NCBI GenBank assembly: GCA_023150055.1
Contig: JAKLLP010000047.1
Span: 1-10,530 of the forward strand
Origin: Gammaproteobacteria bacterium
Lineage (GTDB): Bacteria > Pseudomonadota > Gammaproteobacteria > Steroidobacterales > GCA-2729495
Direction of reading: 5' to 3'
Length of the DNA: 10,530 nt
In this document: positions 2,106 through 10,530 of the stretch, in pieces
Position numbering within the stretch: position 1 is the first letter of the stretch
Layout: every line of letters starts with the position of its first letter
The notes under the pieces: generated by a model
Told to the model about the DNA's origin: nothing
The model's database searches: none
What the model saw: the letters and a program-made list of their open reading frames with translations, nothing else
Translations under genes and position numbers: made by a program

Positions 2106-2107
2106 AG
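2098..2107 (+). repeat. Left remnant of the REP interrupted by the insertion sequence
   Basis: CCTGTGGGAG. Its exact reverse complement is at 3547-3556, at the far end of the inverted REP pair. The repeat resumes at 3488 (CGACTTC...). The last two bases, AG at 2106-2107, are repeated at the right end of the element (3486-3487), as expected of the dinucleotide core used by IS110-family recombinases. Confidence 0.75.
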
Positions 2108-2112
2108 ATGAG

Positions 2113-2126
2113 ATGGACCCCTCCCG
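2113..2126 (+). repeat. Left subterminal inverted repeat of the IS1111-type element
   Basis: ATGGACCCCTCCCG, the exact reverse complement of 3469-3482. The five bases ATGAG lie between it and the AG core on its left. Confidence 0.9.
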
Positions 2127-2207
2127 CTCCACCCCTCGGTGAGGTCTCGGCTCATAACAGCCATGATAGCCACTGGGGCATATCCATACGGAGTCAGGAG
2201 GGATCCA

Positions 2208-3227
2208 ATGAGCAAGATTACGCTGGTGGGACTGGACACATCAAAGTCGGTGTTTCATCTGGTGGCCGTGGACGAACATGGCCAGGTGAGCTGGCGGCGC
2301 TGCCTGCGCCGGGCGCAGTTGTTGAGCTTTTTCGCCCAACTGCCGGTCACGCGGGTAGTGCTGGAGGCCTGCGGTGGCAGTCACCACTGGGGCCGGCGGC
2401 TGATCGAGCTCGGCCACACGGTGCAGCTGATCAGTGCGCAGTTCGTCAGTCCTTATCGACGCGGGCAGAAGAACGATTACCGGGATGCCGAGGCCATTGC
2501 TGTGGCCGCGCTCTCCCCGGGGATGCGCTTCGTGCAGGTGAAGAGCGCCGAGCAGCAGGCGGTGCAGGCGCTGCACCGGGTGCGCGAGCGCGCGCTCACC
2601 GAGCGGGTGGCCATTGCCAACCAGCTGCGCGGGCTGCTGGCCGAGCACGGGGTAGTGTTTGGCCGCGGGGAACGCGCCCTGCGCGGTGGCGCACAGGCAC
2701 TGCTTGGCCAGGGCTGGCTGCCCGCCCCGCTGCCGCGGCTGGTGGCCGGGTTGCTGGAGGAGCTGGCGCGCTGCCGCGAGCGGTTGCGGGAGTATGAGCA
2801 GGAGCTCAACGCGATCGCCCGCGGCTCGGCCACCGCGCAGGCCCTGCAGGCGCAGCTGCCCGGGATCGGGCCGCTGACGGCCACCGCGCTGCCCGTGAAG
2901 GTGGCCGATGTGCGGGTGTTTGCCAACGGGCGGCAGTTTGCCGCCTACCTGGGGCTGGTAGCACGCCAGCACTCCAGCGCCGGGCGCACCCGACTGGGGC
3001 GGCTGAGCAAGTGCGGGGATCGTTACCTGCGCAAGCTGCTCATTCACGGGGCGCGCGCCGTGCTGCGCCACCTCGGCGAGAAGCAGGACGCCGATAGCGT
3101 GTGGCTACGCGCGCTGCTGGCCCGGCGCGGGTTCAACAAGGCGTGTGTGGCACTGGCGCACCGCAATGCGCGGCGCGCCTGGGCGATCATGGCCCGGCAG
3201 GCTGAGCTGGAGGCGCCGCCGGCTTAA
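2208..3227 (+). CDS. IS110/IS1111-family transposase (DEDD recombinase)
   Basis: 339 residues from ATG at 2208, with AGGAGG at 2196-2201 six bases upstream. An in-frame GTG/ATG-type extension from 2139 lacks such a site and is less likely. The N-terminal RuvC-like DEDD domain shows D10 (GLDTSKSVF), E53 (VLEACGG), D90 and D93 (NDYRDAEAI). A coiled linker covers about 115-205. The C-terminal Tnp20 domain starts at LPGIGPLTA (217-225) and includes RQHSSAGR (253-260), whose Ser256 or Ser257 is the expected nucleophile, then GRLSKCGDRYLRKLL. Length and both domains are complete, so it looks active. It should excise the element as a circle and insert it at REP sites under guide-RNA control. The + strand of the upstream flank may also drive expression from a promoter formed in the circle, as known for the family; none is obvious in the integrated form. 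Confidence 0.95.
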   Translation: MSKITLVGLDTSKSVFHLVAVDEHGQVSWRRCLRRAQLLSFFAQLPVTRVVLEACGGSHHWGRRLIELGHTVQLISAQFVSPYRRGQKNDYRDAEAIAVAALSPGMRFVQVKSAEQQAVQALHRVRERALTERVAIANQLRGLLAEHGVVFGRGERALRGGAQALLGQGWLPAPLPRLVAGLLEELARCRERLREYEQELNAIARGSATAQALQAQLPGIGPLTATALPVKVADVRVFANGRQFAAYLGLVARQHSSAGRTRLGRLSKCGDRYLRKLLIHGARAVLRHLGEKQDADSVWLRALLARRGFNKACVALAHRNARRAWAIMARQAELEAPPA

Positions 3228-3299
3228 CGGTTCACGCCGCAGGATCAGGCATCAATCTCACGAGTGCGTCGAGGAGGCGGATGACGAACCGGTTGGACC

Positions 3300-3433
3300 G
3301 GCGTCGGCGGAACTGAGAAGTCGCCAGGGCATCACTGGCCCGGGTGGGAGTGGAGTCGCCGACGCGCGCAGATATCATCGAGGCTGGGGGAAGCACACGT
3401 TCCCCGCTACACGAGCCGGATATAAGCCTGCAC
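3300..3433 (+). ncRNA. Predicted IS1111 bridge RNA (seekRNA) with target and donor loops
   Basis: The region lies between the transposase stop and the right inverted repeat, the known position of IS1111 guide RNAs. Loop 1 is closed by a perfect 9-bp stem, GCGTCGGCG (3301-3309) with CGCCGACGC (3357-3365). It has an inner hairpin GCCAG (3323-3327) / CTGGC (3335-3339). Its left strand holds GAAGTCGC (3317-3324), the exact complement of GCGACTTC at 3487-3494. Its right strand holds GTGGGAG (3344-3350), identical to 2101-2107. Loop 2 has the inner hairpin GGGGAA (3387-3392) / TTCCCC (3400-3405) and a weak outer stem GCAG (3368-3371) / CTGC (3428-3431). Its left strand ATATCATC (3372-3379) matches the complement of the left element tip at 7 of 8 bases. 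Its right strand ATATAAG (3420-3426) equals the right tip 3481-3487. The RNA ends are not defined by sequence alone. Confidence 0.75.
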
Positions 3434-3468
3434 TCACAACCGCGTCGTCTGACACCGCCTTGACACAC

Positions 3469-3482
3469 CGGGAGGGGTCCAT
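3469..3482 (-). repeat. Right subterminal inverted repeat of the IS1111-type element
   Basis: CGGGAGGGGTCCAT on the plus strand, an exact 14-base inverted match to 2113-2126. It is followed by ATA and then the AG core. Confidence 0.9.
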
Positions 3483-3487
3483 ATAAG

Positions 3488-3534
3488 CGACTTCGACTTC
3501 AGTCCCGACAGCGTTTGGCGCTGATCTGAAGTCG
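3488..3534. repeat. Inverted REP pair (BIME-like), right part of the split copy
   Basis: The sequence continues the REP begun at 2098-2107. CGACTTCAG (3494-3502) pairs with CTGAAGTCG (3526-3534), and CAGCG (3509-3513) pairs with CGCTG (3519-3523) around a TTTGG loop. Without the element, the unit would run from CCTGTGGGAG to CTCCCACAGG (3547-3556), a large imperfect palindrome made of two REPs facing each other. GACTTC is present twice in tandem (3489-3494 and 3495-3500), a 6-base duplication absent from the isolated copy at 1956-1980. Confidence 0.7.
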
Positions 3535-3572: not shown

Positions 3573-4679
3573 TTACTGTGCGTCGCCGGCATCCGCAGCT
3601 TCATCGATGCCGCGGATGATCAGGTTCGGCAGCAGCGCCTCGTCCCAGTCGGTGGCGAGATCTCCCGTGCGGACGATGACGAGCCCCTTCGAGGGCACGA
3701 TGTACACGCGCTGCCCGCCGAAGCCGTCGAAGTAAATGAGGTCCGGCGCCGCGAACGGCTCGGCCTGCGGTACGGTCGCCGAGGACTTGCTGTTGTAGCG
3801 CCGCACAGGTTCGTACGCCGTGCCGAGCCAGGTGTAGTAGCCGTAGTTGGGATTACTGGCCGAGGGTGTGACCACCTCGCGCATCCAGCTCTCCGGTACG
3901 ACCTCCTCGCCGCCCGCCACGCCGCGATCGAGGTGCAGGAGCCCGACCGCGAGCCACGAGCGGGCGGTGGCGGCGAGACAGCAGAAGACGCGCGCGAGCC
4001 GGTTGTCCTCGGAGTCGAGCACCACGAAGGCGTCGGCTGCGCCGATGCGCTGCCAGAGCATGGTGGAGAGGTACTCGGCGTAACGGCGGCCGGTTGCCCG
4101 CTCGAGGATGATGCCGATGGCCTGCGGGCCGATGTTGCTGTACTCGAAGCGCGAGCCCGGTTCGGCCTCGAGCGGTTGCCCGAGCACCACCTCGGCGAGG
4201 CTGCCGCCGATCATCACCTGGAAGAACTCGCCGACCGGGTTGAGCAGCTCGAGCGAGGGGAAGCCGATGCCGCTCGACTGCTGCAGGAGCTGACGGATCG
4301 TGACTTTCGCCCGGCCGTCGTTCGCCCACTCGGGCAGGTACAACGCCGCCGGGTCATCCACCGAGGCGATGAAGCCGTCGCGGATTGCGATGCCGGTGAG
4401 CAGCGCGAGGACCGACTTGTGCATCGACTGCAGTACCTCGGCGGGGATGCTGCGCGCAGCGGGCGCGGCGGTCGGTACCTGCAGCGCCGCTCCGCCCGGC
4501 ACGCGTTCCTCGGGCCCGGTGCCGCCGCCGAAGGGCAGGCCGAGGAGCCGTGTGGTGACCACGGGTTCGGTGACGTACATCACGGCGAGGGCGCCGAGCA
4601 GGGCAACGCCGAGCACGGCCAGCAGGCGCTTGAGGATGCGTAACAAGGGACTTTCCCCGGGCGTTGACGAGGCGCGCAT
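3573..4679 (-). CDS. Membrane-anchored serine hydrolase of the beta-lactamase (PF00144) family, probably with an internal deletion
   Basis: 368 residues from ATG at 4679. The only upstream alternative is a TTG at 4709, and neither start has a strong ribosome site. A hydrophobic segment at about 16-36 anchors the protein, with the remainder periplasmic. SMHK at 85-88 is the SxxK motif (Ser85 nucleophile, Lys88), YSN at 180-182 is the YxN motif, and GFGGQ at 319-323 followed by VYIVPSKGLVIVRTG stands in for the third motif. This matches esterase or 6-aminohexanoate-dimer-hydrolase-like members rather than true beta-lactamases. The linker between anchor and SxxK is only about 48 residues, Pro/Gly/Ala-rich, and ends IPAEVLQ-SMHK. 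Relatives normally have two sheet strands (ALLVxxxGxL...ERY) just there. About 40-50 residues therefore seem to be missing in frame, and activity is doubtful. Substrate unknown. Confidence 0.82.
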   Translation of the reverse strand: MRASSTPGESPLLRILKRLLAVLGVALLGALAVMYVTEPVVTTRLLGLPFGGGTGPEERVPGGAALQVPTAAPAARSIPAEVLQSMHKSVLALLTGIAIRDGFIASVDDPAALYLPEWANDGRAKVTIRQLLQQSSGIGFPSLELLNPVGEFFQVMIGGSLAEVVLGQPLEAEPGSRFEYSNIGPQAIGIILERATGRRYAEYLSTMLWQRIGAADAFVVLDSEDNRLARVFCCLAATARSWLAVGLLHLDRGVAGGEEVVPESWMREVVTPSASNPNYGYYTWLGTAYEPVRRYNSKSSATVPQAEPFAAPDLIYFDGFGGQRVYIVPSKGLVIVRTGDLATDWDEALLPNLIIRGIDEAADAGDAQ

Positions 4680-8965: not shown

Positions 8966-10530
8966 TCAGGCGATGGGGTTGAAGGCGGTCAACGCGTCGC
9001 GCAGCGCCACCGAGCCGAGCCCGTGCAGCGGGAACAGGCTCGCGAACTGGCCCTGCTCGCCGTGCAGCGCGAGATAGTTCAACGCCACCATCTCGACCAG
9101 CAGGTTGACGTTGTTCGCCCCCGGGGAGCTCGCCGTCTCGACCGAGCCGTCGGCGCGGAACCAGCCGAGCTGCTGGTGGCGCTCCGGCGGATTGCCGTCG
9201 CCGGTGAACAGCGACGGGCGCCCGCCCGGGTTGTAGACCAGGAAGAACGAGGCGGCGGTGGACTGGTTGTCGCTGGTCCACACGCTCTTGCCGCGCGCCG
9301 CGGCGGAATTGTCGATCGTGCCGTTGGAGTCGACCGAGCCGTCGCTGAACACGTAGAGCATGAGCGGCACGCCCACCCGCGCCGCGTATTCCAGGCACGC
9401 TCCCATGCACACGCCGGCGCGGAAGTCGCGCGTTTCGCCGGTGGAGCGGTCGCCGGTGTGATAATCGAAGCCGCCCATGGTGATGGTGCCGGCGCCGGCG
9501 AAGCCGTTGACGACCATCTTCATCACCGCCGCGGTCTTGCGAAACTCGCCGTCACCCGCGTACTCGGCGTCGGAGAAGATGCCGGAGGCTCCCTTGATGT
9601 CCGCATCGAGTTCCGGGTTGAGCGCGGACGGGTCGCCGTAGCGGTCGGCCAGCGAGGCTGACTTCACGTAGCCGCAGCGCACCAGGTCCTTGATGACGGC
9701 ATCGGTGGTCACCTGGGTATCCACCCGGCCGAGCTTGCGGTCGCTGATGCGCTGGATCGACTCCATGACCGCGACCGCATCGTCCTGGCTGAGCAGGCCG
9801 ACCAGCTTTCCCGTGTCGACCAGGCCGGTGACGTCGCTGGCGCGGTCCACCTTGGTGGGCCGCACGCTCGGGTCGATCATCGACGGCGGCGCGATCGAGT
9901 TGCCGCCCGACTCGCTGCTCTGCGAGCCGATCAGCGTCAGCAGCTCGCCGTCCGCCCCGGTACGCCAGATGGCGTACATGGGGTTGTGCGGATTGTTGCC
10001 GGTGTCGTTCTCCGAGCGCGCCGGTATCACGGCCCCGTTGATGGCGGCCGCCGTGCCCGCCGACACGCGCGTCATCATGCCGCGCAGGAAGGCGCTGTCG
10101 CTGTGAAAGGCAAGCCCGAGCTGGGTGTCGATGAAGGAACTCGTGCCGGTCTGCGGGTTGACGACGGCGGGCGTCATGTCGCCGGGCAGGCCGAGCTTGC
10201 TGTAGCCCGCGGTCGAGAGGAAATCCTGCTGGCCGCCCTGCCGGCCCACCAGCACGTTGGAGCCTGCGATGTTGGCGCCGCCGGCGAGGTCGAAGCAGAT
10301 GAACGGGACCTTGCCGGCGCCGAGTGTGGCAATACCGCACGGGCCGAGCAGTGCCTGCAGGTCGGGGGAGAGGGCGGCGCGGGCCGCCCGGGGATTCGCG
10401 AACAGGCTGAAGATGGTGGGACCCAGCACCAGTGCCCCGCCGCCCGCGAATCCCTGGGCGATGAAATCCCGTCGTGTCACCGGCCGCCGGTGATCCGGGT
10501 GCCGCAACGGCTCGTTCAGTCCGAATTGCT
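8966..10530 (-). CDS. Tat-exported DUF1501-like protein, start beyond the right edge
   Basis: At least 521 codons to the stop at 8966. The frame stays open to the window edge, reading QFGLNEPLRHPDHRRPVTRRDF, so the true start is probably a few codons outside. An in-frame TTG at 10507 is the first alternative (513 residues; numbering below from it). TRRDFIAQGF (11-20) followed by a hydrophobic stretch and ARAAL near 42-46 is a twin-arginine signal, so the protein is exported folded. The body resembles DUF1501, an alkaline-phosphatase/sulfatase-like fold: VPFICFDLAGGANIAGSNVL (67-86), GGFDYHTGD (345-353; compare GGWDTH) and LYVFSDGS (384-391; compare VVxFSEFG). Metal-binding residues look altered relative to the common family, and its substrate is unknown. 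It ends 107 bases before the DUF1971 start. No terminator is clear. Confidence 0.78.
   Translation of the reverse strand, partial: QFGLNEPLRHPDHRRPVTRRDFIAQGFAGGGALVLGPTIFSLFANPRAARAALSPDLQALLGPCGIATLGAGKVPFICFDLAGGANIAGSNVLVGRQGGQQDFLSTAGYSKLGLPGDMTPAVVNPQTGTSSFIDTQLGLAFHSDSAFLRGMMTRVSAGTAAAINGAVIPARSENDTGNNPHNPMYAIWRTGADGELLTLIGSQSSESGGNSIAPPSMIDPSVRPTKVDRASDVTGLVDTGKLVGLLSQDDAVAVMESIQRISDRKLGRVDTQVTTDAVIKDLVRCGYVKSASLADRYGDPSALNPELDADIKGASGIFSDAEYAGDGEFRKTAAVMKMVVNGFAGAGTITMGGFDYHTGDRSTGETRDFRAGVCMGACLEYAARVGVPLMLYVFSDGSVDSNGTIDNSAAARGKSVWTSDNQSTAASFFLVYNPGGRPSLFTGDGNPPERHQQLGWFRADGSVETASSPGANNVNLLVEMVALNYLALHGEQGQFASLFPLHGLGSVALRDALTAFNPIA

Follow-up and report, generated by a model that had tools for sequence, protein, structure and literature searches.

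The RNA-guided insertion sequence is already a known kind: bridge RNAs, or seekRNAs, date from 2024, and insertion into repetitive extragenic palindromes (REPs) is known as well, for ISPa11, ISPpu9, ISPpu10, ISPsy8 and others (PMC1525189). The inverted repeats of IS1111 elements are usually 11–13 bp long, and extensions of 7 bp on the left and 3 bp on the right lie outside them (PMC11187229). A bridge RNA has been predicted in 93.0% of IS1111s, with six diverse elements inspected by hand, and in many of them the donor-binding nucleotides are placed in a multiloop (PMC11208160). The same report that gives the end rule describes a promoter at the circle junction and, for ISEc11, an 82-nt RNA form that was sufficient, and it leaves the recognition of the ends open (PMC11187229). 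The two accounts of 2024 diverge, a short target RNA having sufficed for ISEc11 (PMC11187229) and a donor loop having been predicted for IS1111 (PMC11208160). The element described here is probably one more RNA-guided IS1111, in a gammaproteobacterial assembly and with a readable REP-like target, and its comparison with relatives makes testable the question whether IS1111 RNAs program not just the target but also the donor ends.

The stretch of DNA analysed (the window, 10,530 nucleotides) contains a jumping gene at 2106–3485 of the forward strand which, judged by its ends and its gene, is an IS1111-type element of 1380 bp. Its subterminal inverted repeats, ATGGACCCCTCCCG at 2113–2126 (forward strand) and a perfect copy at 3469–3482 (reverse strand), are 14 bp long and have the 7/3-bp extensions of the IS1111 end rule (PMC11187229). 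The left 7-bp extension AGATGAG (2106–2112, forward strand) is the left donor end and starts with the core AG, and the right tip ATATA (3481–3485, forward strand) is the right donor end. Under the 7/3 rule the interrupted target reads GTGGG/AGCGACTTC, the slash marking the element, with its left half at 2101–2105 and its right half at 3486–3494 (both forward strand); the AG core is present twice, at the left end of the element and at the start of the right flank. A candidate promoter, TTGACA-16-TATAAG, read directly from the letters, faces outward at the right end (3460–3487, forward strand). The right tip and the core make up its –10-like box, in the inserted state included.

The transposase gene (2208–3227, forward strand) encodes a DEDD protein of 339 aa, and this size and the two Pfam domains (PF01548 and PF02371; E-values of 1.3e-22 for Transposase_20 and 1.2e-15 for DEDD_Tnp_IS110) fit the IS1111 DEDD/Transposase_20 class, for which about 330–350 aa are expected. 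D10, E53, D90 and D93 are invariant across nine aligned transposases, and the match to PDB 8wt6 is limited to residues 211–282 (E 2.4e-5). Downstream of the gene, about 240 bp of noncoding DNA extend from 3228 to the right repeat, as is characteristic of IS1111. ISEc11, ISKpn4, ISPst6 and ISPa11 are alike in this downstream noncoding region, in repeats with 7/3 extensions, and in having the top-strand complement before the bottom-strand match (PMC11187229).

All the family features checked are present except the C-terminal motif GL-P----S(T)G, for which the window copy has GLVARQHSSA, with A in place of both the P and the G that follows the serine. The second of these changes (window 2976–2981) gives S257-A258 where SG or TG is usual after the catalytic-type serine, and SG or TG is found in all eight of the other aligned transposases, with SG in relatives that are 91% identical. 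SG is reported to be highly conserved in the family and both residues to be necessary in Piv (PMC11187229, PMC11208158), and in IS621 G242 touches D102 (PMC11208158). It is conceivable, then, that the element and its RNA fold are genuine, with this copy inactive or impaired by SA and its guides a relic. TA is, however, occasionally found in the IS1111 family (PMC11187229), the transposase frame of the window is open with D, E, D and D present, and another left end, with no difference over 72 bp, is seen at a different site, the gene of that copy being unassembled. We consider a relic unlikely, and the departure from the motif is taken as probable variation of one copy.

An initial annotation of the noncoding region had placed four guides in two loops, and all four were recovered at exactly the coordinates given (all on the forward strand). 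The target loop is complementary to each strand of the interrupted site, over 8 and 7 bases, with the top-strand complement first: the left target guide GAAGTCGC (3317–3324) has its complement GCGACTTC at 3487–3494, and the right target guide GTGGGAG (3344–3350) equals 2101–2107. The donor loop complements both ends of the element: the right donor guide ATATAAG (3420–3426) equals the right tip and core at 3481–3487 in 7/7 bases, and the left donor guide ATATCATC (3372–3379) agrees in 7/8 bases, the weakest match of the four, with ATCTCATC, the reverse complement of the left tip GATGAGAT (2107–2114). In both loops the left guide does reach only the first core base, as annotated, since C3325 and G3380 misfit the next one. 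The IS621-like guide order that had been proposed depends on reading the target on the minus strand; guide order has been called reversed between IS1111 and IS110 (PMC11187229).

IS621, of the IS110 group, likewise has a target loop and a donor loop, each with a left and a right guide, a CT core (the window being read on the minus strand) and a DEDD and serine recombinase (PMC11208160, PMC11208158). Unlike in IS621, the RNA of the window lies downstream of the gene rather than upstream, and the inverted repeats are long (PMC11208160, PMC11208158).

Guides of 7–8 bases do recur singly in shuffled DNA: the four matches were found in 41, 138, 493 and 2 of 5000 dinucleotide shuffles of 3228–3468, and the single-sequence fold gave no signal above shuffles. 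At least three of the four jointly, on the other hand, were found in 0/5000 shuffles, which agrees with the claim that the symmetry is hard to obtain by chance. The joint count, the match of a covariance model, the covariation in 46 clusters of relatives and the compensatory pairs (all below) oppose the reading of the guide matches as functionless products of chance or of sequence bias in GC-rich DNA, which we regard as extremely improbable. On the evidence of sequence comparison, we put at about 0.9 the probability that the bridge RNA (seekRNA) of the IS1111-type element is encoded here.

The segment 3262–3445, folded alone, was not stabler than its shuffles (z –0.20; 86 of 200 shuffles at least as stable), and an Rfam search returned nothing at E<=1. 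The single-sequence energy is uninformative; the support for the fold comes from comparison. Alignment of 39 elements showed a common noncoding anatomy, comprising a closing helix, a target stem-loop in which both target guides lie, and a further part whose GGCC-closed hairpin carries the donor guides. RNAalifold analysis of alignment A2 (37 of the 39 elements; L057 and L065 were excluded for length) gave 22 pairs, 15 of them with changes on both sides, and the fold is thus conserved among relatives, as the annotation had anticipated. Paired cells amounted to 95.7%, compared with 76.5% in column shuffles and 30–43% with partners slid, figures biased in favour of structure in that the consensus was derived from A2, where the pairs were counted too. 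In A2 the row of the window is misaligned at the main stem, and the stem of the window was therefore taken from its predicted fold, in which the 5' arm of the target stem (3301–3309, forward strand) forms nine standard pairs with 3357–3365; this stem is in the consensus too. A two-loop fold conserved in the noncoding region is what is expected of a bridge RNA or seekRNA.

A covariance model, R1, was built from 32 relatives, with the window and its 91% relatives excluded and two 58% relatives included. R1 matched the window at 3279–3437 of the forward strand (86.7 bits, E 2.6e-25), so that the covariance search proposed for this region succeeded with R1, though not with Rfam. The modelled RNA of 159 nt, and the portion of it, about 87 nt, that finishes with the target stem, compare with RNAs of about 150 and 80 nt in the ISEc11 group (PMC11187229). 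R1 matched 97 of 100 IS loci (those without a match were L058, L152 and L167), a set that did not include L051, L054, L056, L069 and L094, whose ends were missing or whose matches were weak. A separate run matched 25 of 27 IS loci and 0 of 23 loci taken as controls from the assembly of the window itself, and three further loci of the same genome yielded one match at chance level (L002, 6.3 bits, E 0.11). In locus L146, a second R1 match at 3704–3854 on the opposite strand scored 112.6 bits, above that of the element that brought the locus in.

Relatives were collected by transposase search of a class sample of 369 genomes and an order sample of 396 (E limits 1e-40 and 1e-60), with matches in 44 and 38 genomes, respectively, the window's own genome being included in each. 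The inverted repeats, and not the RNA, were used to define the ends of each element; of 59 loci with a transposase, 20 were dropped for want of a repeat meeting the rule, and L084 and L090 were admitted under a hand-relaxed rule. Five of the resulting 39 elements had cut flanks, and 34 were used for the flank-match test. In these, the longest exact matches between an element's own flanks and its own noncoding region exceeded those with swapped flanks (0/20000 permutations), and the two target guides jointly scored a mean of 13.35/16 against own flanks and 11.06 against swapped ones (0/20000 permutations). Own flanks were unbeaten in 22/34 elements and outscored by those of some other element in 12/34, the worst fits being L053, L039 and L066, beaten by 27, 14 and 12 others. 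At fixed alignment positions, in 32 of the 37 A2 elements, each guide beat its swaps (0/20000 permutations).

Addition of 46 loci gave 71 elements in 46 clusters (greedy clustering at 75% RNA identity); of 98 matches, 24 had no usable ends and three more were lost to a distance filter. Mean own and swapped scores across the clusters were 5.91 and 2.30 of 7 for the right target guide, 7.09 and 4.46 of 9 for the left target guide (taken at the best offset in a 19-base stretch, own and swapped alike), 6.70 and 5.27 of 7 for the right donor guide, and 6.20 and 5.11 of 8 for the left donor guide, each with 0/10000 permutations, where the permutation leaves relatedness in place and the clustering lessens it. 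The ends were required to read ATG and CAT, which preset two bases in each tip, out of five on the right and eight on the left. The target-loop guides thus differ in relatives at other targets and fit their own flanks better than swapped ones, as had been predicted for a bridge RNA.

The nearest relatives are 91% copies in two genomes of the same genus, L067 and L068, followed by two 58% copies, L036 and L035/L038 (L035 and L038 treated as one). L034, from a contig of 'Nevskiales bacterium PRO7', was treated as the same copy as L068. The window has the guides GAAGTCGC and GTGGGAG at the site GTGGG/AGCGACTTC; L034 has GACGTCGC and GTAGGAG at GTAGG/AGCGACGT, where its contig ends; L067 has the guides of L034, yet its site is GTAGG/AGCGACTTC, which leaves one mismatch in the left target guide. 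The expected change of guides with the site was therefore borne out in both 91% copies for the right target guide, and for the left in one copy, with one mismatch in the other. Five copies in one genome (L151 and L153–L156) share one RNA, and their sites have GGA in common on the left and are unlike on the right; either loose specificity of the left guide or misplacement of the right ends by the end rule would give these right-side differences.

The seekRNAs of PMC11187229 are described there by their target guides alone, whereas here the donor loop was followed too. Of the 46 clusters, 31 have ATATA as the right tip and 15 have a different sequence, and the right donor guide equals the tip on all five bases in 29 of the 31 and 14 of the 15. 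A quick tree of the transposases implies at least 11 changes in the tip and 10 in the guide; an independent-pairs test confined to well supported branches had only 4 pairs, about 2 of which changed in the same way, 0 in opposite ways and 2 without difference. A reading in which the target loop is the sole guide, recognition of the ends falls to the protein by way of the inverted repeats, and the donor-like stretches are protein-binding or processing motifs, could appeal to ISEc11, for which an 82-nt RNA with target matches was sufficient (PMC11187229), and to the left donor guide, the poorest fit both in the window and across clusters, where the own guide was best or tied in 15/46. The repeated change of tip and guide, and the exact five-base agreement in 14/15 clusters with non-ATATA tips (two bases being preset by the end rule), oppose it, and even the left donor guide outscores its swaps (0/10000 permutations); we find this reading quite unlikely. 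The tracking of changed tips by the right guide supports a bridge-type donor loop in IS1111, at the level of sequence. A search of titles and abstracts, largely outside the subscription journals, turned up nothing on covariation of donor guides in IS1111, and comparative evidence for an IS1111 donor loop that appears to evolve with the ends is the chief addition made here.

The base that pairs with the first core base is identical in both loops in 45/46 clusters, and it equals the flank in 41/46 clusters for the donor loop and 40/46 for the target loop. The right donor guide ends in a base that is the same as the second base of the flank in 40/46 clusters and as the second base of the left end of the element in 23/46. 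At this second core position the left end and the right flank differ in 27/46 clusters, most often as A versus G, and there the RNA agrees with the flank in 21 clusters and with the left end in 4. This final guide base suits the integrated right junction better than the circle junction, and one core used by both loops is the only account we can offer for its following the flank. The cores read in the RNAs of relatives vary (CG, TG, TT, AG and others), in contrast to IS621, where the second base of the CT core is almost invariant (PMC11208158). This variation of IS1111 cores in step with both loops is relevant to the retargeting of such recombinases.

Taken as one proposal, to which we give about even odds, the donor loop of IS1111 elements is complete and evolves along with their ends: the right donor guide keeps pace with repeated changes of the right tip (ATATA, ATAGA, ATACA, ATGTA, ATACC, ATAGG) and has its core base in common with the target loop, the RNA could be adapted to the right end in its integrated state, as would suit excision, and the short seekRNA for which sufficiency was reported would be no more than part of the natural guide. 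In the window element, the target loop could pair with both strands of the REP-like GTGGG-AG-CGACTTC, and the donor loop could pair with the two tips of the element, likewise around AG. By analogy with characterised relatives, a promoter formed at the joined ends of the circular form would give the transposase mRNA and the RNA, and a recombinase tetramer would hold target DNA and donor DNA on the two loops. Strand exchange at the core by the DEDD/RuvC and serine active site would then insert the element in a single orientation.

The target GTGGG-AG-CGACTTC is, on sequence grounds, a REP-like repeat. The window's own assembly (2.65 Mb, 517 contigs, 73% complete) contains GTGGGAGCGACTTC with at most two mismatches at 63 places, compared with 33 for a reversed control, and certain of the 63 are clearly REP-like, such as GTGGGAGGGACTTCAGTCCCGAC. 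Uninterrupted GGGAGCGACTTC occurs at 11 places in this assembly, seven of them as CGGGGAGCGACTTC. ISPa11 likewise targets REPs, whereas the window element has another transposase and another REP (PMC11187229); compared with the REP-targeting elements of PMC1525189, the match between guide and repeat could here be read directly and followed in relatives. The right flank at 3488–3500, CGACTTCGACTTCAGTCCC, contains a 6-bp tandem repeat of GACTTC. This duplicated flank, GACTTCGACTTC, occurs once in the assembly, and the tandem repeat is found nowhere else there. The REP arm AGTCCC suits GGGACT and not GCGACT, so that the site was presumably altered before or at insertion.

The second copy lies in a different dispersed repeat, CGGGGAG/CGACTTCGGAGACC, which has GGGAGCGACTTC in common with the REP-like repeat targeted by the window element. 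It is cut by a contig end: its left end (L002, 1–72) starts contig C154, adjoining TATCGGGGAG. The context of TATCGGGGAG is the repeat GCGAGTATCGGGGAGCGACTTCGGAGACC, uninterrupted in L017, L020 and L028. The left flank of this copy, CGGGGAG, agrees with the right target guide of the window in 5/7 bases; its own RNA is unassembled, and either two distal mismatches are tolerated or the RNA has been retargeted.

An empty site was sought among 10 genomes of the same genus, the window's own included, and none was found there: the right flank had a match in 8/10, the DUF2130 gene of the left flank was absent from the stretch fetched from the four best relatives (L124–L127), and in L125 and L126 the upstream DNA carries a different gene and shows no REP on inspection by eye. 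Elsewhere in the window, a frame of 513 aa (8966–10507, reverse strand) has a Tat-like signal by eye and no Pfam match at E<=0.001. Searches of collections gave seven phage records, one with at least 80% query coverage, and at least 5000 plasmid records, all below 60% identity among the matches listed.

R1 also matched downstream of the gene in IS4321, a member of the IS1111 family (L182, 75.5 bits). Its guides, read by eye, agree with its flanks for the left target guide AAAACGGAA (9/9) and the right target guide (6/7), and with its right tip for the right donor guide ATAGATT (7/7). The target site of IS4321, the inverted repeat of the Tn21 family, differs from that of the window element.
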